From contig NZ_BJYT01000006.1 of the NCBI RefSeq assembly GCF_007991655.1, positions 248,001 through 312,000 on the forward strand: a stretch of DNA of 64,000 nt, written 5' to 3'. This document shows, piece after piece, positions 31,382-47,854 of the stretch (its first letter is position 1; each line of letters begins with the position of its first letter). Made by a program: the position numbers and the translations under genes. The DNA is from Segetibacter aerophilus (GTDB lineage: Bacteria; Bacteroidota; Bacteroidia; Chitinophagales; Chitinophagaceae). The notes beneath the pieces were generated by a model, which was given only the letters and a program-made list of their open reading frames with translations, was not told where the DNA came from and searched no databases.

Positions 31382-31391
31382 AAGAAAACTA

Positions 31392-32186: not shown

Positions 32187-32252
32187 TAGTAACTACACTA
32201 CCTACTACATCTAATTAAACTAAGTCAATTTGTGTAAACAAACATAACGTTT

Positions 32253-32549
32253 ATGCAAGACTACATCCTTTCTCCTTTTACTCGAGATGAATTAAAACTT
32301 GACTTCTCAGAAGTGGTAAAAAAAGAGTTCCAAAATTTGCTTTCTGCATTACAAGATGCTAAACCGGCCAACGCTCCAAGGTTTTTGACTCGCAAACAAG
32401 CCGCCGCTAAATTAAGTATATCTCTACCAACATTAAACGAATGGACTAAAACTGGAAAGGTTATAGGCTATCGGGTTGCGTCGCGCGTACGTTACAAAGA
32501 AGATGAATTAGAAAGTTCTCTTTCCAAGATTAAAACACGCAGGAATTAG
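32253..32549 (+). CDS. Excisionase-like helix-turn-helix DNA-binding protein
   Basis: A 98-residue protein. The C-terminal half is a MerR/excisionase-type winged helix: FLTRKQAAAKLSISLPTLNEWTKTGKVIGYRVASRVRYKEDELESSL. The N-terminal half is a short acidic helical extension. Proteins of this family act as recombination directionality factors (Xis) or repressors in mobile elements. Located between int and rep, it probably controls excision. Confidence 0.85.
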   Translation: MQDYILSPFTRDELKLDFSEVVKKEFQNLLSALQDAKPANAPRFLTRKQAAAKLSISLPTLNEWTKTGKVIGYRVASRVRYKEDELESSLSKIKTRRN

Positions 32550-32583
32550 AGTTTTAATTTATTCATCTCTACATGCAAGTTCG

Positions 32584-33729: not shown

Positions 33730-33748
33730 GTGTTTTTAAATTCCACTG

Positions 33749-34420: not shown

Positions 34421-34454
34421 GAATGCAAAACTAAAAAACAACCGAGTCATGTTT

Positions 34455-34871
34455 TTAACTGGGGTGTTGCGCAATGTCCCAATAATGGGTCACACTCCTT
34501 AAAAGAGTTATCAACGAGCGGTAGTCATTGGGTTTAGTAAAAAAACCTTGAGCCAATAAATTATATGCTTCTAATATATCTTTTTTAGAATTAGATGTTG
34601 TTAAGAACACGAAGGGAATACTTTGCGTTCTCAATTTTTCGTCTTTGTTAATTTGCTTTTTTAGCTCTAAACCATTAAGTAAAGGCATACTTAGGTCTGA
34701 GAGGATTAAAAATGTTTTTTCGGAGGTTGTTTGCAAATACCTTAATGCTTTTTCGCCATCTTCGAAACACTTCCTTTCATTTTGAATGCCGATGTCTGCA
34801 AGGGCTTGTACAATCAATTCGCAATCATCTAGATCGTCCTCTATAATCAAAATCGGGTGTGCAGTTTTCAT
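34455..34871 (-). CDS. Stand-alone response-regulator receiver protein (REC-1)
   Basis: A 138-residue single receiver domain without an output domain. The acidic pocket (ILIIEDDLDD), phospho-acceptor Asp (LILSDLSMP), Thr/Ser switch (FLTTSNSKKD) and conserved Lys (GFFTKPND) are all present. The sequence belongs to the Rcp1-like group of single-domain regulators that relay phosphate from histidine kinases. Two paralogs lie at 36599-37027 and 40633-41070. No histidine kinase is encoded in the window, so the partner kinase is presumably elsewhere. Confidence 0.92.
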   Translation of the reverse strand: MKTAHPILIIEDDLDDCELIVQALADIGIQNERKCFEDGEKALRYLQTTSEKTFLILSDLSMPLLNGLELKKQINKDEKLRTQSIPFVFLTTSNSKKDILEAYNLLAQGFFTKPNDYRSLITLLRSVTHYWDIAQHPS

Positions 34872-35039
34872 TATTTACATAGCGTTAACGGTGAAAGTAG
34901 TTTAAGGCCATTTTAAAACACTTTAAAATATTTTAAGTATTACATCGTTAAGTGCAGCAATATAGAAAATTCGAATATCATCAAATGGTGTAGAGTGCGG
35001 ATATGAACGCTCATATAATCTGTTTACCTCTAGGTGCTT

Positions 35040-35198
35040 GATTGTAATTATCCCATCACTCCTAAAGTTACCTAAAAGACTTTGTACATGCCTTTCCTGC
35101 AGGTTGGGTGTTTAATTGCCCCCCCTTACCCGGAATTAAACGAATTAGCAAATCATTTCGGTTATGCTGTTAGGGCCTGGGTAGACAGCGGTAAATGA
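35040..35198 (+). pseudogene. Decayed remnant of a small-protein family (family D)
   Basis: Translating with frame changes gives LSHHS, an internal stop, then VHAFPAGWVFNC, a shift at a run of seven C, and PELNELANHFGYAVRAWVDS. This parallels the C-terminal part of the frameshifted gene at 39420-39697 (LSYSQGSKGFNGGVHSFLAG and PELTQFAEQFGYAVMAWIDS). It carries at least one stop and one frameshift, so it is a degraded paralog. Confidence 0.6.
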
Positions 35199-35221
35199 TC
35201 GTCTGGCTGCACTCCGAAGTA

Positions 35222-35851
35222 TCATTTGAGCCGGTATACATCAAAGTCACTTTTTTGAGTGACTTTTTTGCTTCCCTTATAGATTAATACCGTTTTAGTA
35301 ATAAACAAAAAAGCAAGGATCGATATTATTGATAGCAAGAACAAAAAACCTAAAGAAGGGTAGTACTTTAATACCAATCCTAAAATAATCATATCTATCA
35401 AATACATAAATAGTATCAAAATGTATTCTGCTGAGTACTGGGCGCTAAAAACTTTCAACTTCAAAACATTATGCTGCCTGTCTCTAATATTGAACAGGCT
35501 ATCGTAGGTATAGGAATTGTCGTACATCATAATCCTTACTCGACGCATCACATCTTCATAATGTCTAAGTACAAAACCTGTTTTTTTAATATTTAAATAG
35601 ATATATAAGGAAAAAATATTCAGGCAAAAAAACAGAACAAAAATTCCCAACAAAACCCATGTTAAATATCTTTTGTCAAAATCTTTTATTACCGTAAGAC
35701 TGAGCCCAACTACTACGAATAGCACCGTGTAAAAAAAGTTCATAGCCTTAACTCGCCCCTCTTCGAGATGCCTATAATGCGTCCATGCTTGTCTAAATTC
35801 CTCCGTTACAAAATCATGATTTATTTTAGTTGGGTGTATGTTTTCCATCAA
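35222..35851 (-). CDS. Multi-pass membrane protein of unknown function
   Basis: A 209-residue protein with a soluble helical N-terminus (EEFRQAWTHYRHLEEGRVKAMNFF), then two transmembrane hairpins (about 40-58 and 68-90; about 140-160 and 165-188) separated by a helical cytoplasmic segment. This N-terminal-helix plus 2+2 TM layout resembles several small effector-type membrane protein groups in prokaryotic defence loci, but I cannot assign a family. It stands alone, leftward, between a pseudogene remnant and the first hairpin block. Confidence 0.75.
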   Translation of the reverse strand: MMENIHPTKINHDFVTEEFRQAWTHYRHLEEGRVKAMNFFYTVLFVVVGLSLTVIKDFDKRYLTWVLLGIFVLFFCLNIFSLYIYLNIKKTGFVLRHYEDVMRRVRIMMYDNSYTYDSLFNIRDRQHNVLKLKVFSAQYSAEYILILFMYLIDMIILGLVLKYYPSLGFLFLLSIISILAFLFITKTVLIYKGSKKVTQKSDFDVYRLK

Positions 35852-35996
35852 AAGCGGTTTAATGCAATCAGCTGATTAATAAATATACTTACTACCCGCA
35901 TTAAACCACCTCAGAAGTGCAAGTTTATAACTGCAATGTCAGGTCCTTCCTAATCAAGCAATAGTTATAATGTTGTAATTACTGTTATTTCGCGAT

Positions 35997-36072
35997 ATAT
36001 TAGTACTCTCATTTGTTACTTTGAGAGTGTTGACATTTAAAAGCCTTGCAGTAATGTGAGGCTTTTTTAATT
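35997..36072 (+). repeat. Hairpin block, copy 1 (CATTTG-containing repeat ending in a terminator-like stem)
   Basis: This block ends in the stem AAAAGCCT/AGGCTTTT (36039-36046 with 36059-36066) plus a T-run. Its first 22 bases (35997-36018) are identical to the reverse complement of the start of the block at 42255-42327. It lies 69 bases upstream of the first small paralog gene (family A). Confidence 0.75.
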
Positions 36073-36140
36073 AAAATATAAGAAGAATAATAATATTAGT
36101 ATTTGTTGATATATTTATCTTCGTGTTTATAATTTTGCTA

Positions 36141-36341
36141 ATGGGGGACGAAGATTTAACGTACTCGTATAAAGAATTACAATTGTTAGTCCCTCAATCA
36201 GACTTTGAAGAATTAAAGCGGCTCACGCTAATTGTCCAGAGAGAGCGCAGATTATATTACTACATAACCCTTAGTCGCATAACAAGAATGATAACTAGAA
36301 GAACAGTTGAACTGACGCCGACTTCGAAAGTCTCATTCTAA
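36141..36341 (+). CDS. Small island protein, family A member 1 (66 aa)
   Basis: A 66-residue soluble protein from the ATG at 36141; the GTG at 36123 adds only six residues. It shares a pattern with two other island proteins (36370-36561 and 40364-40552): LTYSYKELQLLVPQSDFEEL, KRLT, V, then Y-x-x-I-T-[LM]-S-[RK]-I and a terminal RTVEL. I recognise no named family. All three sit beside stand-alone receiver proteins, which suggests a functional link such as an adaptor or anti-regulator; this is inference. Confidence 0.65.
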   Translation: MGDEDLTYSYKELQLLVPQSDFEELKRLTLIVQRERRLYYYITLSRITRMITRRTVELTPTSKVSF

Positions 36342-36369
36342 ATTATACTACAATTACTAATCCAGTCAG

Positions 36370-36561
36370 ATGATCGAAGCCCCAACTTATACGTTAGAGC
36401 AATTACAAGAGATCATACCTCTACTAGAATTAGATGAGCTAAAATCTATTACTGCAAAGGTTAAGAACGAAAAATCTAGCTATACTACAATTACGATGTC
36501 CAAAATTCTTGTAATGATTAGTGCAAGAACACTTGAATTGGTAAGGCGGACACGTTATTAA
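36370..36561 (+). CDS. Small island protein, family A member 2 (63 aa)
   Basis: A 63-residue protein, closest to member 3: both carry PTYT, EQLQEIIP, ELK, IT, TMSKILV and RTLEL at the same positions. It begins 28 bases after member 1 and is convergent with the receiver protein at 36599-37027, with a gap of 37 bases. The conserved Tyr, Glu-Leu-Lys and SKILV positions argue for selection on protein sequence. Function unknown. Confidence 0.7.
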   Translation: MIEAPTYTLEQLQEIIPLLELDELKSITAKVKNEKSSYTTITMSKILVMISARTLELVRRTRY

Positions 36562-36598
36562 CGCACCAAAGGGTATTATGATGCATGGAGGAGAATTA

Positions 36599-37027
36599 CT
36601 ACGGCTCGAAACTATTTGGTGAGGAGCATCTTTTCCAGTACTCCATAATCACTGAAATTGTTTTCACTAATTCTGCCATCGTATTTTGCTTTATAAAGAA
36701 TCCCTGAACAGAAGCGCTATAAGCATCTATGACCGCTTTTTGGGTTGCCCCGGTAGTAAAAAAAAGATAGGGGATGCATTTGACTTGAAGTTTTGCATCC
36801 AGCCTAATTTTTTCTCTCATCGCAAAGCCGTTAAGTTTGGGCATGTTGATGTCAGAAAGAATTAAAAAAGGCGTTATGTCGGTCCTGTTTAAGTAATTTA
36901 ACGCTTCTTCTCCATCACTAAAAAACTTGATCTCGTTTGGGTAGTTGAGCTCTTTAAACACCAACGATAGCACTTCCTGGTCATCGACGTCATCTTCTAT
37001 AACAACAACAGGTCCACTACGATCCAT
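36599..37027 (-). CDS. Stand-alone response-regulator receiver protein (REC-2)
   Basis: A 142-residue single receiver domain: acidic residues in VVVIEDDVDDQEV, phospho-acceptor Asp in LILSDINMPKLNG, switch Thr in LFFTTGATQK and the conserved Lys in GFFIKQN. No output domain. It shares ILSD-x-[NS]-MP-x-[LM] and SVQGFF with its island paralogs. It is convergent with family A member 2, mirroring the tandem pairing of member 3 with REC-3. The cognate kinase is not in the window. Confidence 0.92.
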   Translation of the reverse strand: MDRSGPVVVIEDDVDDQEVLSLVFKELNYPNEIKFFSDGEEALNYLNRTDITPFLILSDINMPKLNGFAMREKIRLDAKLQVKCIPYLFFTTGATQKAVIDAYSASVQGFFIKQNTMAELVKTISVIMEYWKRCSSPNSFEP

Positions 37028-37140
37028 AGAGAAAGTATTAAAAACAAACCTGGCGGAATTTTCAATTTCCTATTCTTTTTTCAGTCTAAAGAAGCCTCAG
37101 TTCTTTTTTCTGACAGTTGGAAATAGAAGAAAGTAGTAAA

Positions 37141-37203
37141 TTAGTAGCCTCATTTGTATACATGGTTAATCTTTAGAGCCCGCATTCCTGCTGGGCTCTT
37201 TAT
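37141..37203 (+). repeat. Hairpin block, divergent copy with terminator-like stem
   Basis: TTAGTAGCCTCATTTGTATA resembles the start of copy 1 (TTAGTACTCTCATTTGTTAC). It is followed by the stem AGAGCCC/GGGCTCT (37175-37181 with 37193-37199) and TTATT. No rightward gene precedes it, so it may end a short transcript of its own. Confidence 0.5.
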
Positions 37204-37218
37204 TGGAACTACTTATAA

Positions 37219-37497
37219 TTAGATATATGTAAAATGCTTTTGCTTGTCTATTGCACGTTCAACAATATTCTCCGCTACTTTTCCGGCATAGTTTAGAGGA
37301 ATGTCTTTAAGAGCATAAGTGTTCAAAATTTTCCTGAATTTAAATATGACACTTTTACTAACCTCAACATAAAAGTCTTCTATTCTAAAAAGTTCATAAG
37401 TAGAAATCTCATCTTCATGCTCATCAATTTTAAATGCATCTATTAATAACTCTTTCTTTTGCCTGTCTGGTAAGTTGTTGTATTGTTCCAAGTTCAT
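37219..37497 (-). CDS. Small hypothetical protein (92 aa), family C
   Basis: A 92-residue soluble protein: MNLEQYNNLPDRQKKELLID, then an acidic middle and KFRKILNTYALKDIPLNYAG ... ENIVERAIDKQKHFTYI. A truncated rightward copy of its C-terminal half lies at 41228-41371 (SFKFRGILNSYYLKDIPLKY). Conservation of the C-terminal reading frame between the two copies shows this was a real gene. No known domain recognised. Confidence 0.7.
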   Translation of the reverse strand: MNLEQYNNLPDRQKKELLIDAFKIDEHEDEISTYELFRIEDFYVEVSKSVIFKFRKILNTYALKDIPLNYAGKVAENIVERAIDKQKHFTYI

Positions 37498-37695
37498 AGT
37501 TGCAGTATTCTAATTCGCGCCTATTTGAATTGGAACTAACACAACAAATATTCCAGTTTTGTCTAATGGATGTTGCGGGAAATGTACTCCCAAGTTAGAC
37601 AAACATGTGGAAAGGTGTATACAAATGTTATCGTTGCAAGGGGGGAAAGGTGGACGAAGCCCGGGACATAAAGGATTATTAAATAAATTTTATAA

Positions 37696-37899
37696 TCACT
37701 TCAGCATTTGTTTCAGTACCTTAATTTTTTCTCGAATTGCCTTAACTACTTCAAAAGTCCGGTCTGCCCGTATCGCCGCTTTGAACTTCAGTTCTTCTTG
37801 TTCTATTTGTTTTTGAAGATCTACGTCATCGTTTTTTTCCTGCTTGCAAGTATCTTGGGAGCGATCAAACGATGTGTCGCGAGGAGTTGATGATAACAT
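37696..37899 (-). CDS. Small coiled-coil-like protein (67 aa)
   Basis: A 67-residue ORF with a Ser/Asp/Lys-rich N-terminus and a C-terminal amphipathic helix pair: LQKQIEQEELKFKAAIRADR, then TFEVVKAIREKIKVLKQMLK. Heptad-like Leu/Ile spacing suggests a short helical hairpin, a pattern seen in small uncharacterised Bacteroidota proteins. An overlapping rightward ORF exists but is composition-poor; this frame is the more protein-like. Confidence 0.5.
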   Translation of the reverse strand: MLSSTPRDTSFDRSQDTCKQEKNDDVDLQKQIEQEELKFKAAIRADRTFEVVKAIREKIKVLKQMLK

Positions 37900-38150
37900 A
37901 AAGTGTAATTATTTAGATGAATGCGTCTGTAGGGTTACAATTGACTTTCTAAACAATTACCTATGCCTTTTAAGAAGGGGAACGGTAGCTTTTTAAACAA
38001 ACGTGAAGTAATATACGAATTAGAATTTTAAAAAGCAAAGCCTGAACAAGTTGGCAAAAATTTTGACTGTAACAGAGGGTTTAAGCGTATGGAAGATTGC
38101 AACCCTCCTCCCAACTAACCAACATTTTGAAAATCGTTTAAAGATTATTA

Positions 38151-38414
38151 ATGGCGCGGCATTTAAATAGCGTTGACTTTGAAACAAAAAACTGGAAGAA
38201 TCTTTATAACCTACTTACTAAGCATCAAGAGGGAGAAATTGTAAGCGAGGTCGAACCACCTGGATTGTTTGTCAGATATATTGAAGCAAGACCTTTTACT
38301 AGTTTGGCAGTGGAATTATTCAACGATGAAGACCGCTTCTTGTATAGACTTAAATTTACATCTAATATTCTTCCTTCTACTAGCTATTTTCCCTGGCAAT
38401 CATTTAGGTTGTAG
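38151..38414 (+). CDS. Small hypothetical protein (87 aa)
   Basis: An 87-residue ORF starting at an ATG. It has a globular, mixed composition (NWKNLYNLLTKHQEGEIVSE, FVRYIEARPFTSLAVELFND) and no signal or membrane segment. The balanced hydrophobic pattern suggests a real beta/alpha protein. It lies alone among small island genes. I do not recognise the family. Confidence 0.5.
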   Translation: MARHLNSVDFETKNWKNLYNLLTKHQEGEIVSEVEPPGLFVRYIEARPFTSLAVELFNDEDRFLYRLKFTSNILPSTSYFPWQSFRL

Positions 38415-38655
38415 GAGGTGAGTTGGCTTTTAAATCAGCGTTTCCGGCGATGTTATTTTATGTTAATGACTAAAGTATTAATAATTTAGTCGTTCACAAC
38501 ACCGTATTAGCCACAAGGAAAGTAGTACAAGAGATTGATGCTTGTAAATAGCTTTTTGTCTCAACTGCGAAATGAATTTGTGTTTTATAAAGCCACGGTG
38601 GTATTAAGGTGCTAATTGTGTAGTTGTTACCAATCCTTTAGACAACTATCAACGT

Positions 38656-38823
38656 ATGTTCTCGTGCAAGCGTCATGCTGCATCTAAAGCATCTCTTATG
38701 ATCCTACTAAAGTTATTATCGGTTCTCGCTGTTGTTCTAGTGCTAGTTGCTATTTTTTTAAATTCCTACAAAAATGAGGTCAGCCCGAAGAACAATTCTA
38801 TTAATAAACCTCCTGCTAAATGA
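38656..38823 (+). CDS. Small single-span membrane protein (55 aa)
   Basis: An ATG-started ORF encoding a short basic N-terminus (MFSCKRHAASKA), one strong hydrophobic helix (SLMILLKLLSVLAVVLVLVA) and a polar Lys/Asn/Pro tail ending PPAK. Such tail-anchored micropeptides are plausible in islands. It ends 3 bases from the convergent sigma-like gene. No family recognised. Confidence 0.42.
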   Translation: MFSCKRHAASKASLMILLKLLSVLAVVLVLVAIFLNSYKNEVSPKNNSINKPPAK

Positions 38824-38826
38824 GCT

Positions 38827-39096
38827 TTACTTAATTCTTTGAGCTATTTTATACAGACAAAAGAATATTGTTTCCTCACCTATTTGTGCAGCTTTAACCC
38901 TCGCTATAAATTCTTTAAAAACTTCTAAGAGAATGTCAGATGCTTTATCAGTATCGTTAACTGTTTTTAAAATTGAACCATAAATGACACTTGCGTAAAC
39001 ATCATATAGTTCTGTTATTCCATCACTAGGATTATTTAATAGTACTTTCAGCAAGTCCTCTTCTACACTCGAACGCATTATCTTACTCTTTGTCAT
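38827..39096 (-). CDS. Sigma-70 region 2-like protein lacking region 4 (89 aa)
   Basis: An 89-residue protein whose middle resembles ECF sigma region 2: ITELYDVYASVIYGSILKTV, then NDTDKASDILLEVFKEFIAR, followed by a helix and stop. ECF factors are usually 160-200 residues with a region 4 that binds the -35 site; here nothing follows region 2. Upstream sequence shows no fused region 4. It could be a natural core-binding-only regulator or a truncated remnant with an intact frame. Confidence 0.6.
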   Translation of the reverse strand: MTKSKIMRSSVEEDLLKVLLNNPSDGITELYDVYASVIYGSILKTVNDTDKASDILLEVFKEFIARVKAAQIGEETIFFCLYKIAQRIK

Positions 39097-39219
39097 TGTG
39101 TTACTAGCATCTTATAGAAAGGAATAACATAACAATCAGAACCAGCACTCAAAATAACACAGAAAGAATTTTTATAAGCATACTCTAAAATGCAATCCTT
39201 CTGAATTACCAACACTTAA

Positions 39220-39411
39220 ATCCTACTTGAACTGATTAATTCTGATTCTTCCCTTTCTATAGTTAGAGTATATAAGCAATTATACAACCACGTTACTGCT
39301 AAAGATCTAGGAGATGTAAAAATGTATCTATTTAAAGAGGTAGCCCTTACCCCAACATCAGATCCAAATCTAATTTGTCGAATATTAGAAGACCTAATAT
39401 TGAAATTATAG
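39220..39411 (+). pseudogene. Open frame without a start, possible gene remnant
   Basis: A 63-codon open frame that reads like protein (SLSIVRVYKQLYNHVTAKDL, then DPNLICRILEDLILKL) but has no ATG, GTG or TTG until codon 35. It may be a 5'-truncated gene or use an unrecognised start. Weak. Confidence 0.25.
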
Positions 39412-39419
39412 AATGTAGC

Positions 39420-39697
39420 TCAATTGTGACTATCAATCCAGGCCATAACAGCATAACCAAATTGCTCAGCAAACTGGGTTAACTCCGGATGCGAAGCGCT
39501 ATCAAAATTCCAACCTGCAAGAAAGCTATGTACACCGCCGTTAAATCCTTTACTTCCTTGGCTATAGGATAATGTTCCCCAGTAGTAGTTGTTAGCCATT
39601 AAGTGGTAATTTTCTGTTGTTCCTGCGCCACTTAGGGGCTAGGAGTCCCTTTAAACTCCTTTCCATTAAGGTCAAATACTACCGTGATGTTGTCCAT
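39420..39697 (-). pseudogene. Frameshifted small-protein gene (family D)
   Basis: From the ATG at 39697 the frame reads MDNITVVFDLNGKEFKGTPS and then stops. A +1 shift near 39635-39642 (CCCCTAAG) restores a frame reading LSGAGTTENYHLMANNYYWG ... SFLAGWNFDSASHPEL ... FGYAVMAWIDSHN. The total of 278 bases is two short of a full frame at 92 codons plus stop. Rejoined, it is a small globular protein resembling the remnant at 35040-35198. A sequencing error or programmed shift is possible, but a second decayed copy favours gene decay. Confidence 0.65.
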
Positions 39698-39957
39698 GTC
39701 AGCAAAACTATTTTTATGGTGCAAAGCTGCTTAAATAAATACTTAAAAGATTTAATACGATAGGAATAGACTTTATATGTTTAGACCTTACGTGAAACGA
39801 GTTAGATATGATTAAGTCTTCACCTGCGGCTTTTACCAGGTATCTTATCGGAGTTTTTTTATAATTCGTGTATGGACTGCAACCCAAACTATGTGCTTTT
39901 CCTCCTTTCTTAGAAAGAAAATATTTTAACCCCATTAATTGTTTGACCTTTTTAAAT

Positions 39958-40179
39958 ATGCAGCAAAAAGAACGAGTTAAACTAGCCGAACTAACTAGAA
40001 TAGCAATATATATTAACAAGGAGCTATTAGCAAATGAAAAGAAGTTTCTTGAAGCAGTATCTTCTAACCAAAGCCGGTTGTATCTGCAAGACTTGAACGA
40101 AAAAATAAACTACCGGTGCCGCAAAGAGCGTCTATACCTAGGCGCAGCAAAATCTCTATTGAGGATAGGTGAGAAATAG
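39958..40179 (+). CDS. Small helical protein (73 aa)
   Basis: From the ATG at 39958 the product is 73 residues, highly helical and charged: MQQKERVKLAELTRIAIYIN, KELLANEKKFLEAVSSNQSR, and a basic C-terminus. An upstream TTG-started extension (39868) is composition-poor and rejected. No known family. It precedes the hairpin block and family A member 3 on the same strand. Confidence 0.5.
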   Translation: MQQKERVKLAELTRIAIYINKELLANEKKFLEAVSSNQSRLYLQDLNEKINYRCRKERLYLGAAKSLLRIGEK

Positions 40180-40228
40180 TTGCTAGCTATTGAATTGATC
40201 CTCTCAATAGACCTATTGCAATAATGCC

Positions 40229-40300
40229 ATTCATTTGGTATATTCAATTTGAGTTGGGGGGAGTTACTTGAAGGCCTTGTAGAAATGCGAGGCTTTCTTA
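40229..40300 (+). repeat. Hairpin block upstream of family A member 3
   Basis: A CATTTG box and, about 40 bases later, the stem AAGGCCT/AGGCTTT (40271-40277 with 40290-40296) with loop TGTAGAAATGCG. The loop and stem resemble copy 1 at 36039-36066 (loop TGCAGTAATGTG). Both lie just upstream of a family A gene. Confidence 0.55.
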
Positions 40301-40363
40301 TTTGCTATGTAAAAGCATCCCTCATTATATGCAATCATACTTTGTATCTTGTACTTTTGATAT

Positions 40364-40552
40364 ATGCCCAATATCCCTACCTATACTTCAGAGCAATTGC
40401 AAGAGATTATACCTCTATCAAACCTAAAAGAGCTTAAATTAATTACCGAAATTGTCAAGAGTGAAAAAGCATGCTATAGCACCTTTACGATGTCAAAAAT
40501 TCTTGTAATCATTAGCAAAAGGACACTCGAATTGGGAAGCAACCTTTTATAA
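40364..40552 (+). CDS. Small island protein, family A member 3 (62 aa)
   Basis: A 62-residue protein sharing with member 2 the pattern PTYT-x-EQLQEIIP, LKELK-x-IT, S-E-K, Y, T-[MF]-SKILV-x-IS and RTLEL. It lies 80 bases upstream of the receiver protein REC-3 on the same strand. TACTTTTG at 40352-40359 fits the TAnnTTTG element but is very close to the ATG. Function unknown; repeated linkage with receiver proteins is the main clue. Confidence 0.7.
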   Translation: MPNIPTYTSEQLQEIIPLSNLKELKLITEIVKSEKACYSTFTMSKILVIISKRTLELGSNLL

Positions 40553-40632
40553 GTCATCACTTATTGACAGTGATCTAACTGGTCATAGTATAAAATTTCA
40601 ACTAATGACATTTTAGGAGTTATCTTTCCAAC

Positions 40633-41070
40633 ATGCATAAAAAGGGTGAAATAATTTTTATTGAAGACGACCTAGACGACAGAGAACTTTTCGAGGAGGC
40701 TTATAAAGAATTAGCAATTCCAAATCGGCTAGTCATTTTTAAAAACGGACGTGAAGCATACGAATATTTCAACAATATGAAGAAATCGTTATTTCTGATA
40801 ATCTCGGATATTAATATGCCAGGAATGTCTGGAATACAATTGAGAGACAAAATGCAGCAGGTGGGAGAAATGAATTTACGTACTATACCTTTTTTGCTCC
40901 TTACAAACGGAACGTCACCACAAAATATTTTGTATTCATATAGCCACTCTGTACAAGGCTTTTTTAGAAAGCCGTCTACTTATCCTGAACTAAAAAATCT
41001 CTTGCAAAAGATATATACGTATTGGACAAATGTCACTGAAGCTACCTTTTCTAACTTGCCACCTGAGTAA
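40633..41070 (+). CDS. Stand-alone response-regulator receiver protein (REC-3)
   Basis: A 145-residue single receiver domain: acidic pocket IIFIEDDLDDREL, phospho-acceptor Asp in LIISDINMPGMSG, switch Thr in LLLTNGTSPQ and conserved Lys in GFFRKPSTY. No output domain. It follows family A member 3 directly. A remnant of a family C gene comes next, so this neighbourhood repeats the content of 36-37.5 kb. Confidence 0.93.
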   Translation: MHKKGEIIFIEDDLDDRELFEEAYKELAIPNRLVIFKNGREAYEYFNNMKKSLFLIISDINMPGMSGIQLRDKMQQVGEMNLRTIPFLLLTNGTSPQNILYSYSHSVQGFFRKPSTYPELKNLLQKIYTYWTNVTEATFSNLPPE

Positions 41071-41227
41071 GAAAAAATCGAGCTATTTTCTATTAATGTA
41101 CCTAAGTCTTCTAACGCGTCTACAGTTACCACGCATGTTAAATAAAAAAAAGCCCCGCGTAAAAACAGCAGAGCTATTAAACCTATTAATCAAAACATAT
41201 AAACTGTAATATTAATAAAAATCCTAT

Positions 41228-41371
41228 TCCACAGTCGTCCGGTCATTTAAATTCAGGGGAATTTTAAATTCGTATTATCTTAAAGACATTCCCTTAAAGT
41301 ACGCAGACAAGGTAGCAGCAAATATTATTGAAACTGCTATCGGCAAGCAAAAACAGATGACTTTTATCTGA
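41228..41371 (+). pseudogene. Truncated copy of the family C small protein
   Basis: A 5'-truncated frame: TVVRSFKFRGILNSYYLKDI, then PLKYADKVAANIIETAIGKQ and a stop. It aligns without gaps to the C-terminal part of the protein encoded at 37219-37497 (FKFRKILNTYALKDIPLNYA ... ENIVERAIDKQKHFTYI). There is no start codon and the N-terminal half is missing. Confidence 0.7.
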
Positions 41372-42254
41372 TCAAAATCAAGTCTTTGTCTTTTAAATTA
41401 GTAGTCCAATGCATCAATTTTTTTTTTGCTGTAGAACCTTATGCGACTAAGAAGGCAACTATGTAAACGATGGTGGTATTCTGCCGATCTTACACCGTAT
41501 TAAAGCGTCCCCTGTTCCATCAGTTTGCCTAACAACTCCCTCGCTTTCACTGCGTTTATTTAGTCAAGTAGGTTATCATATATTATAAGTAAAACCTTCC
41601 CTAGTTTCTTACATAGTTTCATAGGAAATATTGTTTGTTCATCCATCTTTTGGTCTTGTATTGGGAGCGAAAATCAAAACGATTAGAGGAGACCGAAGTA
41701 CTACTAATGGATAAAATAGCGAATGGGCAGGATAACCCCCAGCCCATTCAAAAAAAGAAACCCCCAAAGTCTCAATTAGAACGAAATTACATCATTGTGA
41801 AGTAAGCGTTCAAACATTAAAAAAAATTAATTACTTGCATAGACAACCTTTTTTTATCTTGCCACTACAATAAGAAAATTACCCCCAAGGTGAAAAGGGA
41901 GTGCCGGAAGGCCTTCCTTTCTTATTTTAAGAAAGCATAAGCGGTAAAAGAAGTGCCAGATAAAGATTTCAGTCCGTTCTAAAAACAACTACTAAATCGT
42001 AAGCGGCAAGCAAAATACGATTACACTATTATAACTACCTTGGTTATCTCAAAAAATTCTATTTCCTTCACTCTAGGTATAAGGCGTAGTATTGAAGTTA
42101 ATCCTCTACCCATAAAACTTTCAGTATAGAACAGTAGCAGTTAGGGCCTTAGCGCATCAAAGGATTTGCGATAAGCCCACACCATAAAAACTTACAGAAT
42201 TAGCAGTTTGGTTTTTTACAAAAAGAGGATTTGAAATAAAAGTTGGACAAGGCA
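41372..42254. other. About 0.9 kb of gene-free island DNA
   Basis: No supported ORF. It contains an 8-bp hairpin GAATGGGC/GCCCATTC (41721-41728 with 41742-41749), a palindrome GGAAGGCCTTCC (41906-41917) and CTTTCTTA/TAAGAAAG (41917-41924 with 41928-41935). This hairpin cluster might hold an origin or regulatory RNA, but nothing specific can be claimed. Confidence 0.4.
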
Positions 42255-42327
42255 CTAAAAAAGCCTCGCATAGCTGCAAGGCTTTCAACGTCAACATTTT
42301 CAAGTTAACAAATGAGAGTACTAATAT
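42255..42327 (-). repeat. Hairpin block, inverted copy
   Basis: Read on the minus strand it begins ATATTAGTACTCTCATTTGT, shares 22 identical bases with 35997-36018, and ends in the stem AAAGCCT/AGGCTTT with a T-run. On the minus strand no gene follows it, unlike copies 1 and 3. Confidence 0.75.
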
Positions 42328-42393
42328 CTGTGCTTTAACAGTGAATAAAAGGCTACTTTCCCTAATAATTTAGGTTATTAGAAAAAAGATACT

Positions 42394-42969
42394 ATGGCAA
42401 AGCCTTCTTCTTGTCCTGACTTGTACGATGAGTGTAGAACAATTTCAATTACAAAACTCAAGGAGTGGAATTACTTAAATCGTAATGATTTAAAGACGGG
42501 TAATATAAGCTGGAGCAGAAATAATACCGTGCATTCAAGAATAGGAATATTAGTCAATACTATTTCAACTCGTCCTTTTGTAGAGTTGGACTATAAATGC
42601 AACGATCAAGTTATTAACTACAAAGTTTACTTAATTAGTAAGCCAACAAATATTGGTAAAGGCGAGCAATGGTTTTTCGAATGCCCAAGTACCAAAAAAC
42701 TCTGCCGGAAACTTTATATGATTAGTACTTACTTTCTTCACCGGAGTGCCTTTAAAGGGGCTCTATATGGGAAGCAGACCTATTCTAAAAACAACAGAGA
42801 TCAATTCAGAGAGTTTAAAAAGGAATTTGATATAGAGGATGCTTACGAGACAACTTATAGCCGGTATTTTAAAAAGTCTTATAACGGTAAGCCAACAAAG
42901 AGATATAGCCGGATTTGCAAAAAGTTGAGCGGAAGTAAAATCGGTTCTTTAGATAGATTTGGTATTTAA
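42394..42969 (+). CDS. Conserved-looking hypothetical island protein (191 aa)
   Basis: A 191-residue soluble protein. An N-terminal block (CRTISITKLKEWNYLNRND, GNISWSRNNTVHSRIGILVN) is followed by FVELDYKCNDQVINYKV and a Cys pair in WFFECPSTKKLCRKLY that could bind zinc. The C-terminus is very basic (KRYSRICKKLSG), suggesting nucleic-acid contact. I associate this layout with accessory genes of Bacteroidota mobile elements but can name no function. It lies upstream of the cassette array. Confidence 0.7.
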   Translation: MAKPSSCPDLYDECRTISITKLKEWNYLNRNDLKTGNISWSRNNTVHSRIGILVNTISTRPFVELDYKCNDQVINYKVYLISKPTNIGKGEQWFFECPSTKKLCRKLYMISTYFLHRSAFKGALYGKQTYSKNNRDQFREFKKEFDIEDAYETTYSRYFKKSYNGKPTKRYSRICKKLSGSKIGSLDRFGI

Positions 42970-42971
42970 AC

Positions 42972-43030
42972 TTGCGTCTTTTGTGTTGATAAATTAGGAT
43001 TTCAGAATTTCCTCAACACAAAATGCGCAA
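42972..43030. repeat. Large hairpin between the 191-aa gene and the cassette array
   Basis: TTTTGTGTTGA/TCAACACAAAA (42979-42989 with 43013-43023) extended by TTGCG/CGCAA. It begins 3 bases after the stop codon. There is no T-run, so it is not a standard terminator; it may be a degenerate cassette site. Confidence 0.5.
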
Positions 43031-43108
43031 TTGCAAGAGATTGAAAAAGAGCATTTAACACCAATTTTTATTCTGCAACTAAATTGGGTAAGTTGCGTTT
43101 ATTTAAGA

Positions 43109-43117
43109 GTTATGCGC
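43109..43117 (+). other. Possible left boundary box of the first cassette (R'-like)
   Basis: GTTATGCGC fits GTTRRRY loosely. Its reverse complement matches 7 of 9 bases of the box after the first cassette gene (GCCCGTAAC at 43723-43731). Confidence 0.4.
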
Positions 43118-43139
43118 ACTAAAAAAACACTAAATCTAC

Positions 43140-43715
43140 ATGAGTGACACATTAAATAAAAAATGTCCTTACTGTAAGGAACTTATTAAAAGAGATGCAC
43201 TTTTTTGTATTAAATGCAATAACTTTTTAAATTGGCGTAGGTATCTAAACTTTGGAAATACTTTTTTGGCACTTTTAGTCGCTTTGATTTCTGTGCTCTC
43301 TTTCGCAATACCTGCAATAAAAAATTCTTTAACAGCAGAAAATTCTGTTCTACATGTAAATTACTCATTTGTTTATGGTGGCCATATTATGATGATTGTA
43401 TCTAATTCAGGAACTAAGCCGGGACACATAATAAATGGACTTATTTCTTATAACAATGGTGCTCAGAAGAACATAAATGTCCAAGTGGTCGGAGTAGCCG
43501 CAGGTGAGAATTATATTGCTCAAGGAAGCTCTAAAGAATTTCAGTTATTTATTGACGACGATGGCAAACGTGAGATACAGAACGACCTTCGCAATCTAAA
43601 TAATTTAAGTGAAATAATTTTACTCGTTAACGTTATCAACTTCAACGGAAAGAGAGAAACGTACAAATACAAACTGGAGAAAGCTGACTTTGTAAAACTA
43701 AATGAAGCAGAATGA
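43140..43715 (+). CDS. Cassette 1: zinc-ribbon membrane protein
   Basis: A 191-residue protein with an N-terminal double-CxxC zinc ribbon (CPYCKELIKRDALFCIKCNNF, residues about 9-30), one transmembrane helix (about 40-62, TFLALLVALISVLSFAIPAI) and a C-terminal beta-rich domain (about 70-191), probably on the other side of the membrane. The zinc ribbon is probably cytoplasmic. It is the first of six co-oriented genes separated by attC-like sites. Function unknown. Confidence 0.8.
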   Translation: MSDTLNKKCPYCKELIKRDALFCIKCNNFLNWRRYLNFGNTFLALLVALISVLSFAIPAIKNSLTAENSVLHVNYSFVYGGHIMMIVSNSGTKPGHIINGLISYNNGAQKNINVQVVGVAAGENYIAQGSSKEFQLFIDDDGKREIQNDLRNLNNLSEIILLVNVINFNGKRETYKYKLEKADFVKLNEAE

Positions 43716-43722
43716 CGAAACT

Positions 43723-43858
43723 GCCCGTAACATGAGTGTTTATAAAATTGTGGCTGGATGTGGGGCATTCAACTGTGAATCACTATTTTGCTTTTGTGGT
43801 AATTGAAACCAGACGTTTTTTAAATGCGACAACTTCATGAACACTTTATCGTGGCTGC
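43723..43858 (+). other. attC-like site A
   Basis: The outer left box GCCCGTAAC (43723-43731) is followed by arm AGTGTTTATAAAATTGTGGC (43735-43754); the right arm GCGACAACTTCATGAACACT (43826-43845) is its imperfect inverse. The right box is GTGGCTGC (43851-43858). Total length about 135 bases. Confidence 0.75.
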
Positions 43859-43898
43859 AAACGAAGACAGTCTCCTTTAAGTGATTGACATTTATAAA

Positions 43899-44528
43899 AT
43901 GACAATGAAATATTATTCTTTCTTATTCTTTTTACTCACTCTATTCAGTTATGCTTATGCCCAAACTCCGACTACCATCCCCGGGTATTACGTAACTAAC
44001 ACAAACGATACGGTTAACGCTCAAATAAAAATGCCCCATTATATATTTAGCAATAAAGCAATGCTAATAAAATTTGCTGAGAAGGTAACCATTGTTGACA
44101 GCGTAAAGGGAAACATGGTATTTAAAGTAAATGATATTAAAGGTTTTGGCTTCTTATATAATGATAATAGGTATCAATTTTTATCGAAAGATTTTGGGCG
44201 AGAGAACGCTTTTAGTGCAAGTACTCATAGATTTTATCAAGCTATCATTCTTGGACAAAAAAGCAATCTTTACCACAGGTTAACAACTGTGGACCCGAGT
44301 GGACGCATACTAGGTATCACCTATTTTTTAGAAAAGTCAAATGGTACAAATACAGCCATCTATTTATTTGCACGAATACAACCGGAGTTTATTAGAAATC
44401 TTTTAAAACAGTTTTACAAAGACAATGTTGTAGTTCACACATTAATTGACAGTAAATTTCAAAACAAATCCTTTGAAACATGGCAAAATGATATAATAGA
44501 AATAGTGCAAGCCGTAAATAAGTTATAA
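43899..44528 (+). CDS. Cassette 2: exported hypothetical protein
   Basis: About 209 residues from the ATG at 43899; a GTG at 43881 adds six residues. It has a signal peptide (KYYSFLFFLLTLFSYAYAQ), then a soluble domain (GYYVTNTNDTVNAQIKMP, IKGFGFLYNDNRYQFLSKDF). The opening IPGYYVTNTNDTVNAQI is typical of secreted Bacteroidota proteins of unknown function. The left box GTGGCTGC and the box after the gene, GCAGCCGAC, are complementary over six bases. Confidence 0.8.
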   Translation: MTMKYYSFLFFLLTLFSYAYAQTPTTIPGYYVTNTNDTVNAQIKMPHYIFSNKAMLIKFAEKVTIVDSVKGNMVFKVNDIKGFGFLYNDNRYQFLSKDFGRENAFSASTHRFYQAIILGQKSNLYHRLTTVDPSGRILGITYFLEKSNGTNTAIYLFARIQPEFIRNLLKQFYKDNVVVHTLIDSKFQNKSFETWQNDIIEIVQAVNKL

Positions 44529-44536
44529 ACTGCTGT

Positions 44537-44671
44537 GCAGCCGACACTATGTTTATAAAATCGTGGCTGGACATTAAGCATTCGACTTTAAATCAGTATT
44601 TTTCTTTAGTGGTTAATTGAGACCGAAGTTTTTCAATTGCCACAACTTCATAAACACTTAACGTTAGCTGT
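44537..44671 (+). other. attC-like site B
   Basis: Left box GCAGCCGAC (44537-44545), arm GTTTATAAAATCGTGGC (44551-44567), inverse arm GCCACAACTTCATAAAC (44639-44655), right box GTTAGCTGT (44663-44671). It shares its interior with sites A and F (GTGGTTAATTGAGACCGAAG). Confidence 0.85.
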
Positions 44672-44700
44672 TAATTACACCTTGGTGACAAACATTAAAA

Positions 44701-45582
44701 ATGTTTTTAGAAAAATATCAAACAATAGGAGTAGCATCAGATGAAGCCAAGTTAAAATTAGCTGCTATTCTTTTCGATAAAGTTTGTTGTACAGTAAAAG
44801 ACATCCCGGTTCCAAAAAACCTGCAAGCCCCTTTTCTTTTAGATGATAAGGAACTCGACACTATTCATTCTCATATCTCAAATCAGATTGAGAAGGGTTT
44901 CATGGATGTTTACAGAGAAAGATTCATGGACAAGTACGTTAAAAAAGAACAGACTATAAGTAGAGATAAGGTAATAGAACATATGGAAGCATTTGCAACC
45001 GAACCTGTTTCAAAGTTTCGTAACCTTATTGTTGTGGAAGCATCTAAAAAGCTTTTTGGAAATAAGACGTTGCCAATACCAATATTCAACCAAACAATCT
45101 TTCAAGATTATCTTGAAAATGATTACCGAAATCAATTAATGTTAGACAAAGTCGAAGTAGAAATTATAAATGCACCCATTATCGTTGCTTCAGAATTACA
45201 ATGGAGCCAGATATCGGAGGCAAAAAAGGATTCCGACTTTAATAAAAAAGTAAAACGTTTTTCGCTCTTTATCAATAAGAATTACAAAGGAAAGGACATT
45301 TCGTTTATTATTGATGACCTCTCAATTCAGATTGAAGATTATAAAGAGGCTTGCAATAAACACGGTATTAGACTTGCAAACGAAACGTTCAAATCACTAT
45401 CAACTTCCAAGTCATTATTTGGTACAGTAGCAGTAGTACTTTGCTCATTGTTACTAAAAATGCCAGAATATGCAATTGTATCAGGTTTAGCCGGAGCATC
45501 ACTGGAGCTCTTGAATTTGAAAGTCACCGTAAATCAATTTACAGATAACTTTGAGACTTTCGTTTCACAAAGCCCCATTTAG
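44701..45582 (+). CDS. Cassette 3: hypothetical protein with C-terminal membrane hairpin
   Basis: A 293-residue protein with a long soluble helical/acidic region (1-235) and a C-terminal hydrophobic hairpin (about 240-275; LFGTVAVVLCSLLLKMPEYA, IVSGLAGASLELLNL). No catalytic motif visible. The ATG lies 29 bases after the right box of site B. Its two boundary boxes, GTTAGCTGT and ACAGCTAAC, are exact reverse complements. Function unknown. Confidence 0.8.
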   Translation: MFLEKYQTIGVASDEAKLKLAAILFDKVCCTVKDIPVPKNLQAPFLLDDKELDTIHSHISNQIEKGFMDVYRERFMDKYVKKEQTISRDKVIEHMEAFATEPVSKFRNLIVVEASKKLFGNKTLPIPIFNQTIFQDYLENDYRNQLMLDKVEVEIINAPIIVASELQWSQISEAKKDSDFNKKVKRFSLFINKNYKGKDISFIIDDLSIQIEDYKEACNKHGIRLANETFKSLSTSKSLFGTVAVVLCSLLLKMPEYAIVSGLAGASLELLNLKVTVNQFTDNFETFVSQSPI

Positions 45583-45626
45583 TTGATTTTGGAAATTGAC
45601 AAGATGAAAGACAGAAAATGAAGACT

Positions 45627-45763
45627 ACAGCTAACAGCATGTTTATGTAATACTGGCGGAAGAACATAAACCAATCTTTCTATCTTTTATCATCATCAAC
45701 AAGTTTTTGGAACATTAGTATTTTAAATACCAGTACTACATAAACACGTTCAACGTTATAAGC
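45627..45763 (+). other. attC-like site C
   Basis: Left box ACAGCTAAC (45627-45635), arm GTTTATGTAATACTGGC (45641-45657), inverse arm CCAGTACTACATAAAC (45730-45745), right box GTTATAAGC (45755-45763). Confidence 0.85.
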
Positions 45764-45777
45764 AACCTTGAAAACAC

Positions 45778-46185
45778 TTGTTTAAACCCGAACACTACGT
45801 ATTGATTTTATGCTGCCTACTGTTAACGAGCTGTTTCTTTGACAGTAGGTTTGAGACTATTAAAGGGGAGTATCAAATAGGGTGGATTGATGTAAGCGAA
45901 AGCCGTGCTATTTATAATCAAGAGAGGTTAATTACTCCATATGTTTTTGCCGTAGGGCATAATTCAAGATTTATCATTGCTAAACAACATCCTTCCACTG
46001 ATTTCCCTAAAAATTCTATTGATAAAAGCATAACCAATTACTTTGCAATTGACATGTCTAAAAATCCGTATCCAGGTCAAGATGGAATATATGGTCCAAT
46101 GCCCAAAGCAGAATTTGATAATTTTTGCAATAGAGAAAATATCAACAATATTGAGTTCGATATGACTTATGATGGAGTACCGTAA
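45778..46185 (+). CDS. Cassette 4: small lipoprotein
   Basis: A 135-residue predicted lipoprotein: a short N-terminus, hydrophobic YVLILCCLLL and lipobox LTSC, so the mature protein would begin at Cys19. The rest is soluble (GEYQIGWIDVSESRAIYNQE, FAVGHNSRFIIAKQHP). The start appears to be TTG at 45778, because an in-frame stop lies 9 bases upstream and no ATG precedes the signal. Boundary boxes GTTATAAGC and GCTTATAAC are exact reverse complements. Function unknown. Confidence 0.75.
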   Translation: MFKPEHYVLILCCLLLTSCFFDSRFETIKGEYQIGWIDVSESRAIYNQERLITPYVFAVGHNSRFIIAKQHPSTDFPKNSIDKSITNYFAIDMSKNPYPGQDGIYGPMPKAEFDNFCNRENINNIEFDMTYDGVP

Positions 46186-46189
46186 GGCT

Positions 46190-46326
46190 GCTTATAACAA
46201 CAGCTTCTATGCAATAGTGGCTTTAGGAATAGACTTAAACTGAATATCTTTAATGAGCTTTAGAACAGCAGTAAGGCAGTAGTGCAACGAATACCGCTAC
46301 TGCATAAAGCTGAAAAGCGTTAGGCG
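46190..46326 (+). other. attC-like site D
   Basis: Left box GCTTATAAC (46190-46198), arm AGCTTCTATGCAATAGTGGC (46202-46221), inverse arm CCGCTACTGCATAAAGCT (46294-46311), right box GCGTTAGGC (46317-46325). The right box GTTAGGC is a perfect GTTRRRY. Confidence 0.9.
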
Positions 46327-46357
46327 TAAGTTTATTGGAACATTGTAACTAATAAGA

Positions 46358-46801
46358 ATGGAAAAGATTAAAGCAGGGATTGAACATTATGGTTGGTATG
46401 TTATACAGGTTTTAGAAGATGACAATAATCCTCCGTTTGGCTATTCTATTGGCCTATTTGAAACATTCGGACATCCTGAGGTTTTGATAGTAGGTCTTAA
46501 ACTTGAATTGATCCATTCTCTTATTAATATAATTGGCGAACAAATTAGAAACGGAGAAACTTTTCAAGAAAGCCATTTTTATTCAGACATCTTAACCAAT
46601 TATCAGTGTTACTTTACTTCTGTCAATCCTGAGAGTTATAATGACTATGTTTATCAGGCAATTAATTACTATAACGAAAGCAATTTCCCATTATTACAAT
46701 ATATCTATCCTACGGTTAAAGGCATTTATCCCTGGGAGGCAGAATGGCCTGAAGAAATTGCTTACTTACAACCTATTTTAGGTAAATCTCCCTACGCCTA
46801 A
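46358..46801 (+). CDS. Cassette 5: DUF4262 family protein
   Basis: A 147-residue protein of the DUF4262 type: IKAGIEHYGWYVIQVLEDDN, then PPFGYSIGLFETFGHPEVLI and the C-terminal YPWEAEWPEEIAYLQPILG. The domain has no established function but is widespread in variable gene pools. The stop codon TAA lies inside the box GCCTAAC of the next site, the tight gene-to-attC packing typical of cassettes. Boundary boxes GTTAGGCGTA and TACGCCTAAC are exact reverse complements over ten bases. Confidence 0.88.
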   Translation: MEKIKAGIEHYGWYVIQVLEDDNNPPFGYSIGLFETFGHPEVLIVGLKLELIHSLINIIGEQIRNGETFQESHFYSDILTNYQCYFTSVNPESYNDYVYQAINYYNESNFPLLQYIYPTVKGIYPWEAEWPEEIAYLQPILGKSPYA

Positions 46802-46930
46802 CAACAGCTTCCATGCAATAGTGGCTTTAGTGATAACGTTAAACAGAATATCTTTAATGAGCTTTACAACAGTAGTGGATGATACAAATATTACTGCCAC
46901 TACTAGATAAAGCCGAAACACGTGGGTTGC
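46796..46930 (+). other. attC-like site E
   Basis: Left box GCCTAAC (46796-46802, a perfect RYYYAAC), arm AGCTTCCATGCAATAGTGGC (46806-46825), inverse arm GCCACTACTAGATAAAGC (46896-46913), right box GTGGGTTGC (46922-46930). Close relative of site D, sharing TATCTTTAATGAGCTTTA in the interior. Confidence 0.9.
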
Positions 46931-46939
46931 AATTTTTTT

Positions 46940-47485
46940 ATGACACATCCTATACTTCCAATCTTAATAGGAATAATTTCTTTTCTACTTTTTGTTTTCT
47001 ATTTGGTGACAGGGATTAAAAGGAAAAATTTTTTTCGATTTATTTCTTCGTTAGCCTTCGTTCTGGTTTTAGTTTTATGTTTTTTGTGGCTCGGAATTTT
47101 AGCAGCAGGGAAAGCGACTTCCAAAGCGACGGAAGCAATAGACAGAGTTAAGAGTAAATTCGCATCGAGAACCGGAGGAGAAATATACTTAGCATTATTT
47201 GGGGAACCAACTGTCAGCTGCTTGAAAGTTGTCAATAAAACAGACCAAATTGTACCAAAACTTGATTGCTGTATATTGTTGGAATTTAAAACTTGTCCAG
47301 AAGAACTGCGAAGGATAATTAGCCTTGAAAACTATCACTCCGAAGTTTATGACTCCAAGGACACGGCTCAGTATATCCCGACTTATAGTCCTAAACCTAG
47401 GTGGTGGACACCAAATAATTTAAACAAAACGGTTATGGTTTTAAGGAGCTATAATTCGGATAATCCAAATCGAGACAAGTTTTAA
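46940..47485 (+). CDS. Cassette 6: hypothetical two-span membrane protein
   Basis: 181 residues from the ATG at 46940; the GTG at 46922 lies inside the right box of site E and is rejected. Two transmembrane helices (PILPILIGIISFLLFVFYLV and SLAFVLVLVLCFLWLGILAA) precede a soluble C-terminal domain with a Cys pair (LDCCILLEFKTCPEELRRII). Function unknown. Boundary boxes GTGGGTTGC and GCAACCAAC match at 8 of 9 positions as reverse complements. Confidence 0.78.
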   Translation: MTHPILPILIGIISFLLFVFYLVTGIKRKNFFRFISSLAFVLVLVLCFLWLGILAAGKATSKATEAIDRVKSKFASRTGGEIYLALFGEPTVSCLKVVNKTDQIVPKLDCCILLEFKTCPEELRRIISLENYHSEVYDSKDTAQYIPTYSPKPRWWTPNNLNKTVMVLRSYNSDNPNRDKF

Positions 47486-47539
47486 TTTTTGCGAGTGACA
47501 GTACCCGTGCGTATTATTGCGATATGGCAGATTAAAACT

Positions 47540-47640
47540 GCAACCAACGGTGTGTTTACAAATTGTGGCTGGACGTCAAGCATTCAGCTATAAATCGCTA
47601 TTTTGCCTTTGTGGTTAATCGAAACTAAGTTTCCAAATAC
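47540..47640 (+). other. attC-like site F, right half lost
   Basis: Left box GCAACCAAC (47540-47548) and arm GTGTTTACAAATTGTGGC (47552-47569) are followed by the interior shared with sites A and B. The similarity breaks after AAGTTT near 47632, and no inverse arm or GTTRRRY box follows. Confidence 0.7.
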
Positions 47641-47706
47641 CAAAGATTTTAAAAGCTCCTTTACCTCACTAAAGTTTCAGTTACTTTCTAATCAATTGTT
47701 ACTAAA

Positions 47707-47726
47707 GTTACCCCTACAGTTCCCCC
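47707..47726 (+). repeat. Subterminal 20-bp repeat, right copy
   Basis: GTTACCCCTACAGTTCCCCC, 19/20 identical to 30036-30055 and in the same orientation, 54 bases inside the right att repeat. Confidence 0.7.
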
Positions 47727-47779
47727 TAGTTACTTTTATTCTTTCAAAACGTTGGTAATAAACAACTTAACATCGGTAG

Positions 47780-47796
47780 TTGTAGCCTTGACAGGA
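47780..47796 (+). other. Right island attachment site inside tRNA-Arg 3' end
   Basis: TTGTAGCCTTGACAGGA, the second copy of the 17-bp direct repeat. On the minus strand it covers the end of the T arm, the acceptor 3' strand and the discriminator of tRNA-Arg, so the tRNA remains intact. Confidence 0.9.
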
Positions 47797-47854
47797 ATCG
47801 AACCTGTATCTAAAGTTTAGGAAACTTCTATTCTATCCATTGAACTACAAGGCC
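47783..47854 (-). tRNA. tRNA-Arg (anticodon CCT)
   Basis: Hand-folded cloverleaf on the minus strand, 72 bases: acceptor GGCCTTG/CAAGGCT (one G-U), D stem GTTC/GAAT, anticodon stem GAAGT/ACTTT with loop TTCCTAA (anticodon CCT, reading AGG), a 4-base variable region, T arm ACAGG-TTCGATT-CCTGT and discriminator A. CCA is not encoded. Its 3' end is the island integration target, and its probable terminator is now 17.9 kb away at 29848-29890. Confidence 0.95.

Follow-up and report, generated by a model that had tools for sequence, protein, structure and literature searches.

How does an ordered row of gene cassettes come to stand in a genome in which no integron integrase is found? The question is raised by a 64,000-nucleotide stretch of Segetibacter aerophilus (Bacteroidota, Chitinophagaceae; contig NZ_BJYT01000006.1, positions 248,001 to 312,000; hereafter the window), in which six genes separated by hairpin-forming sites lie inside an island at a tRNA-Arg gene. 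An earlier note, made from the letters of the window alone, took them for a cluster of attC sites lacking integron integrases (CALIN) of the kind known from IntI integrons. We conclude that the region is very probably a cassette array without an integrase that belongs to an integron system of the Bacteroidota, and that the likely enzyme of this system belongs to a group of tyrosine recombinases to which we give our own label, BI.

From 43.14 to 47.49 kb the window holds six genes in one orientation, each with an attC-type site at its 3' end that is laid out as left box, arm, interior, arm and right box. Crossover points placed in G/TT or G/TG right boxes (the slash marks the crossover) fall at 43109/10, 43851/52, 44663/64, 45755/56, 46319/20 and 46922/23, and define six cassettes:

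43110..43851, plus strand: cassette 1; gene 43140-43715, zinc-ribbon-like membrane protein (under the Pfam cut-off); site A 43723-43857
43852..44663, plus strand: cassette 2; gene 43899-44528, function unknown; site B 44537-44671
44664..45755, plus strand: cassette 3; gene 44701-45582, function unknown; site C 45627-45763
45756..46319, plus strand: cassette 4; gene 45778-46185, lipoprotein-like, weak DUF3997; site D 46190-46327
46320..46922, plus strand: cassette 5; gene 46358-46801, DUF4262; site E 46794-46930
46923..47640, plus strand: cassette 6; gene 46940-47485, membrane protein; truncated site F, 47541 to about 47640

The earlier note had claimed attC architecture for all these sites, and the coordinates uphold it except at a few points: site F is missing both the right arm and the right box, the right boxes of A and E read GTG where the other three of five read GTT, and the left box of B ends in GAC, not AAC. 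Comparison of the repeats confirms that the interiors fall into two related families, A/B/F and D/E. None of the six genes matches a recognised immunity family in Pfam, PADLOC gave no match for the seven proteins tried, and PHROGs gave none for the two cassette genes tried.

A circular cassette requires complementary ends, and hairpin repeats alone are not sufficient to explain heads and tails that pair. The window cassettes have such ends, for example GTTATAAGCA with TGCTTATAAC and GTTAGGCGTA with TACGCCTAAC, with mismatches in cassettes 1 and 2. For 10-base strings positioned by eye, the true assignment of heads to tails is the best of all 720 permutations, with 53 of 60 identities against a mean of 38.5.

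A second line of evidence comes from a covariance model, R1. Its training set, 48 sites in 15 of the 17 loci scanned and none from the window, was selected by length, arm score and box letters. The training sites share a common hairpin, all 17 predicted pairs of which have changed on both sides somewhere. R1 recovers sites D (63.4 bits), C (46.8), E (40.1), B (38.2) and A (23.6), with E-values from 3e-12 to 2e-3, so that a conserved hairpin of variable sequence is present in five of the six sites; it does not match site F, and its next-best match in the window has an E-value of only 0.85. Nothing at E<=0.1 was found in 59 control loci (258,872 bases). The attC-like array seen in the earlier note, which had also suggested a covariance check, is thus borne out by the pairing of heads and tails and by an independent model, while Rfam alone gives no attC match at E<=1 across 42.0-48.6 kb. 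Over the whole draft genome R1 has 19 matches at E<=1, five in the window, seven on contig C16, four on C41 and three on C2, and the genome has at least three further attC loci besides the array described here.

Complementarity between neighbours extends well beyond this genome. Among 93 R1 matches on 30 locus-strands (a set without one match on a Chryseobacterium plasmid, L045, that is cut by the locus end, and without the weakest matches), the six-base boxes of adjacent sites agree at a mean of 5.22 bases, with 42 of 60 pairs perfect, and those of non-adjacent sites at 2.44, with 6 of 327 perfect. With the window excluded the perfect pairs are 39 of 56 against 6 of 311 (p=5e-23). An earlier, smaller head/tail set had omitted window site A, both matches in locus L196, three in L045 and the loci with single hits. 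When the array DNA was compared with 117 genomes of the family, 20 further matches were found at 77-91% identity, in 11 other family genomes and in one other place of the same genome; all 20 lie inside attC sites (A, B, C, D and F) and none in genes, so the same genes in the same order across distant genomes, which the earlier note had named as the finding to set against cassettes, were not seen.

Which enzyme goes with these sites? Against 72,556 plasmid records the array has one distant match, 125 nucleotides of site B at 85% identity on a plasmid of Hymenobacter volaticus, and this match lies near a duplicated, frame-broken tyrosine recombinase. On the Hymenobacter plasmid (L009:15550-18570) both BI-like copies are frame-broken in the record, in which other genes are also annotated as split. 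The C-terminal piece of this recombinase has relatives on Chryseobacterium, Rufibacter and Pontibacter plasmids, where co-oriented genes follow 3' of the recombinase with boxes in between; a Flagellimonas relative has no array in its annotation. On the Chryseobacterium plasmid a repeat of about 280 nucleotides occurs four times among the cassettes (9390-9671, 11485-11766, 13866-14147 and 16935-17216). At E<=1e-50 a BI profile built from four proteins has matches in 207 of 395 genomes sampled from the window's class, a count slightly too high in that it includes one canonical IntI (genome G037).

Linkage between the sites and BI was assessed in the best 80 of at least 591 matches from a scan of named genome contigs. 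At E<=0.01 R1 has 65 matches in 23 of these loci, and 62 of the 65 are downstream of BI on the same strand. Carriers with R1 matches include Flavobacterium, Algoriphagus, Winogradskyella, Algibacter, Seonamhaeicola and Rufibacter; R1 found no site in those of the 80 loci titled Pseudomonadota, Patescibacteria or archaea. Of the 117 family genomes, 40 have BI and 77 do not; R1 finds matches at E<=1e-3 in 32 of the former and 30 of the latter (p=3e-5, Fisher table tallied by hand), and the second count suggests that arrays without an enzyme are common. A chain scan of 39 BI loci, four of them with less than 150 nucleotides downstream and nine with a contig end within 600 nucleotides of the integrase, used six shuffles per locus and is illustrative: 19 of 35 loci beat their shuffles with at least two sites, four of them (L085, L096, L109 and L115) only marginally, with L110 (nine sites, 87.5 against 8.0) and L117 (seven sites, 60.5 against 15.5) as examples. 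A scan with ungapped arms proved too strict and was dropped, since most Rufibacter sites and several of those in the window escaped it.

The tail of a first attC site predicts the landing site of its cassette, and the six predicted bases after TT were therefore sought 3' of BI. Of the 20 named loci with downstream matches, 15 were used; in these a head within 200 nucleotides of the BI stop codon agrees perfectly in 11, at five bases in two and at four bases in two; tails taken from other loci gave one perfect match in 210. For the two four-base loci, when the range was left open, perfect matches lie farther off, at 355 and 940 nucleotides. The context of these attI-like sites is A+T-rich, as in GCATATATACAAG/TT or CGTTTATCCAATTG/TT, and comparison with them identifies one at the head of the window array:

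43090..43118, plus strand: attI-like site, GCGTTTATTTAAGAG/TTATGCGCA

The array begins GCGTTTATTTAAGAG/TTATGCG, 140 nucleotides 3' of an open reading frame (ORF) of unknown function, and the window has this landing site and no BI gene, and hence no complete BI-type integron. The same motif, with A/TT, recurs in an island on contig C41 of the same genome, where the head agrees with the tail of the first R1 site at five of six bases. BLAST joins the pre-array elements of window and C41 over their first 84 nucleotides only (77%). As a general feature of such arrays the 170-nucleotide pre-array element was rejected, being found in four of 294 family genomes including its own and in the other three over 36-54 nucleotides only; it looks like a feature of the island. 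The ORF before the array (42394-42969) was likewise rejected as a constant array head, with homologues in four of the 117 family genomes including its own, and outside its own genome these lie on contigs other than those with listed R1 matches.

BI proteins are 278-547 amino acids long, mostly 344-401, and the IntI-specific insert is absent from them: 42 alignment columns are filled in more than 70% of the IntI rows, of which there are only eight, and in fewer than 20% of 37 BI rows, and 41 of the 42 columns form a single block (six of 39 integrases were excluded for ragged ends, duplication or an in-frame stop). Alignment of BI to IntI4 (2a3v) is interrupted between residues 208 and 246. With TIGR02249, the IntI profile, four intact plasmid BI proteins score about 194-207 bits against a cut-off of 265; the alignment spans positions 7 to about 180 in the best stretch and, for the C-terminal Hymenobacter piece, starts only at 238. 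BI also falls outside the IntI branch. A narrow quick tree, midpoint-rooted, gives BI as one branch (87, unstarred) and IntI as another (100), the two together against XerC/D (99), and in a wider tree, for which four of 37 loci were dropped because they had no open frame, the BI branch (33 rows, 90) takes in a Parabacteroides recombinase and TnpF of plasmid pHH1107. On that plasmid TnpF (L146:5139-5804) stands beside tet(X), and its clustering with BI places the recombinase group near drug-resistance genes as well. Most BI proteins have an N-terminal extension with a very weak resemblance to DUF5710 (E=0.0025, under the cut-off); AlphaFold predicts residues 1-60 of a Flavobacterium BI protein as a compact beta-beta-alpha-beta-beta-alpha unit at a predicted local confidence (pLDDT) of about 82-92 (mean for the protein 86, predicted template modelling score 0.62).

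We propose that the cassettes, each a gene plus its attC site, were excised as circles and inserted through site-specific recombination. The likely catalyst is a BI recombinase, in which an Xer/IntI-like catalytic domain without the IntI insert is joined to an extra N-terminal domain, and its substrate may be a folded strand. In complete systems an attI-like site, with the crossover before TT, comes after BI, and the array after that. The window island holds the attI-like landing site and six cassettes but lacks a BI gene, such that its cassettes would be mobile only with BI supplied in trans from elsewhere; otherwise the array would be frozen and decaying.

Several observations weigh against this reading. 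The truncation of site F and the three boxes off consensus are what a decaying array would look like, and Rfam is silent on all of the sites. The sites are not uniform, as R1 at E<=0.1 misses the shorter ones of the Rufibacter, Pontibacter and Parabacteroides plasmids, and 12 of the 60 adjacent pairs agree at four or fewer of six bases. Linkage to BI is also imperfect: three of the 65 R1 matches are upstream of BI on the opposite strand, 16 of the 35 loci in the chain scan show no array above shuffles, eight of the 40 BI-bearing family genomes have no R1 match at E<=1e-3, and the 30 of 77 BI-less genomes do have one. We do not claim a strict sister relation of BI and IntI, since XerA-like and rhizobial lineages join both in the wider tree. 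No recombination has been observed.

The best of the other explanations, though an improbable one, is that a canonical IntI integron left the array behind and that ordinary IntI supplied and moved its cassettes. The attC logic is shared, IntI enzymes tolerate diverse attC sites according to PMC9668308, and among 296 genomes sampled from the phylum, 84 have an IntI that scores above the TIGR02249 cut-off. Against this, only G037 is above that cut-off in the window's class or nearer among the matches listed, and the 20 kb next to its IntI yield a single weak R1 match (E=0.023); R1 finds nothing in 30 IntI loci, whose flanks reach only up to about 1.5 kb; and the sites adjoin BI instead. The draft genome (5.9 Mb, 79 contigs, rated 100% complete) contains no BI at E<=1e-50 or 1e-70 and no IntI above the cut-off, either in the island, as the earlier note had stated, or elsewhere. 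Its term CALIN stands, with at least two attC sites found by R1 and no integrase, but not its assignment to the known IntI kind: because the sites adjoin BI, which has no IntI insert and forms its own branch, this CALIN is apparently no relic of a canonical IntI integron.

It is highly improbable that the host pair XerC/XerD moves the cassettes. Both genes are in the window genome, where they are the best matches to the IntI profile, and of the recombinases that are always available they are the closest in sequence; but they are present in 13 of 13 genomes checked, which leaves the linkage of arrays to BI and their co-occurrence in the family unexplained. Equally hard to credit are dispersed palindromic repeats of the repetitive extragenic palindrome (REP) type, or intergenic terminators without cassette function, because although the sites are hairpins between co-oriented genes with similar copies elsewhere in the genome, plain repeats would not predict complementary heads and tails, crossover boxes, attI-like sites or linkage to BI.

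The array is carried by an island whose own integrase is of an ordinary kind:

29900..47854, no strand: tRNA-Arg island, bounded by a 17-nucleotide repeat of the tRNA end (29900 and 47780)
47782..47854, minus strand: tRNA-Arg (cct), the integration target
30098..31381, plus strand: island tyrosine integrase, arm-binding type, 427 amino acids, not of the BI or IntI kind
32253..32549, plus strand: excisionase-like protein (phrog_66, E=1e-8)
42394..42969, plus strand: pre-array ORF, 191 amino acids, function unknown, with a distant relative in the C41 island

The earlier note's description of a tRNA-Arg island with an ordinary integrase agrees with this, and the island is absent from a congener, G925, whose flanks match best (about 80% DNA identity) and which has 218 nucleotides in place of window 28290-47768, a difference that reaches about 1.6 kb to the left of the repeat-bounded island. 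A second congener, G801, encodes a relative (67%) of the island integrase at a distance of about 9 kb from this tRNA gene, and R1 has no match in six congener stretches. The island also encodes three small response-regulator-like proteins (34455-34871, 36599-37027 and 40633-41070), and one in the C41 island (L163), which holds a further attC array and shares the pre-array element with the window island, is 79% identical to the last of these. On C16 a second array (L162:8055-14883) has ten R1 matches on one strand with an arm-binding-type integrase (405 amino acids) upstream, and in the C2 region with attC sites a tRNA-Val (L164:3160-3235) lies near an integrase of 419 amino acids.

The system behind the window array shares with IntI integrons and their CALINs cassettes with attC hairpins, the G/TT crossover, a landing site after the integrase and co-oriented genes, and differs in that the linked integrase has no IntI insert and scores below the TIGR02249 cut-off. 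With XerC/XerD, BI shares a catalytic domain without that insert, but it forms a separate group in the trees and mostly has the N-terminal extension. CALINs are called from two attC sites without an integrase under the IntegronFinder definition given in PMC9024848; for Bacteroidetes that paper lists only In0 elements from earlier work and a single complete integron, newly reported, in Salinibacter ruber. Recombinase-associated acquired interbacterial defence (rAID) systems of gut Bacteroidales consist, according to PMC12247911, of a tyrosine recombinase and immunity genes in one orientation, with conserved motifs between the genes, and their biogenesis is left open there. We take the array on a Parabacteroides plasmid (L147) for a rAID system. 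In this array, head and tail are exact complements over 8-11 bases in all seven consecutive cassettes (strings picked by eye and then checked), and its recombinase groups with BI; it differs in its immunity-gene cargo and in a right box CCATTA against CGTTA, and its sites were found neither by R1 nor by the chain scan. The window has no such recombinase and no recognised immunity genes, and is not itself of the rAID type. A 2019 paper on acquired interbacterial defence reportedly may already compare rAID with integrons. In Riemerella anatipestifer, aph(3')-IVb has a 140-bp 3' element with an attC-like fold and is inserted site-specifically and without homology after transformation; the part of PMC13148043 available names no enzyme, and we liken this element to the attC sites here by description only.

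That the IntI additional domain is necessary for activity is the title of Messier and Roy 2001, as cited in PMC2426708, a survey that chose integrases by this domain. Selection of this kind would overlook integrons without it in a very large phylum, and among the matches listed for open PubMed Central papers we found no description of BI-type integrons in titles or openings of abstracts. A broader proposal, on which we stand evenly balanced, is that the Bacteroidota have an integron class of their own with insert-less integrases, whose N-terminal domain may read attC hairpins; that this class unites environmental arrays, plasmid arrays and the rAID immunity arrays of the gut, and probably the Riemerella resistance cassettes; and that some tRNA islands, the window's included, are satellite integrons that carry only an attI-like site and rely on an integrase provided in trans. 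The BI-linked integron type is widespread but little-described, and R1 together with the attI-like motif provides tools to map its arrays. It makes it testable whether a recombinase without the IntI additional domain can read folded attC sites, and it offers BI as a candidate enzyme for the assembly of rAID arrays and for the homology-free insertion of cassettes in Riemerella.

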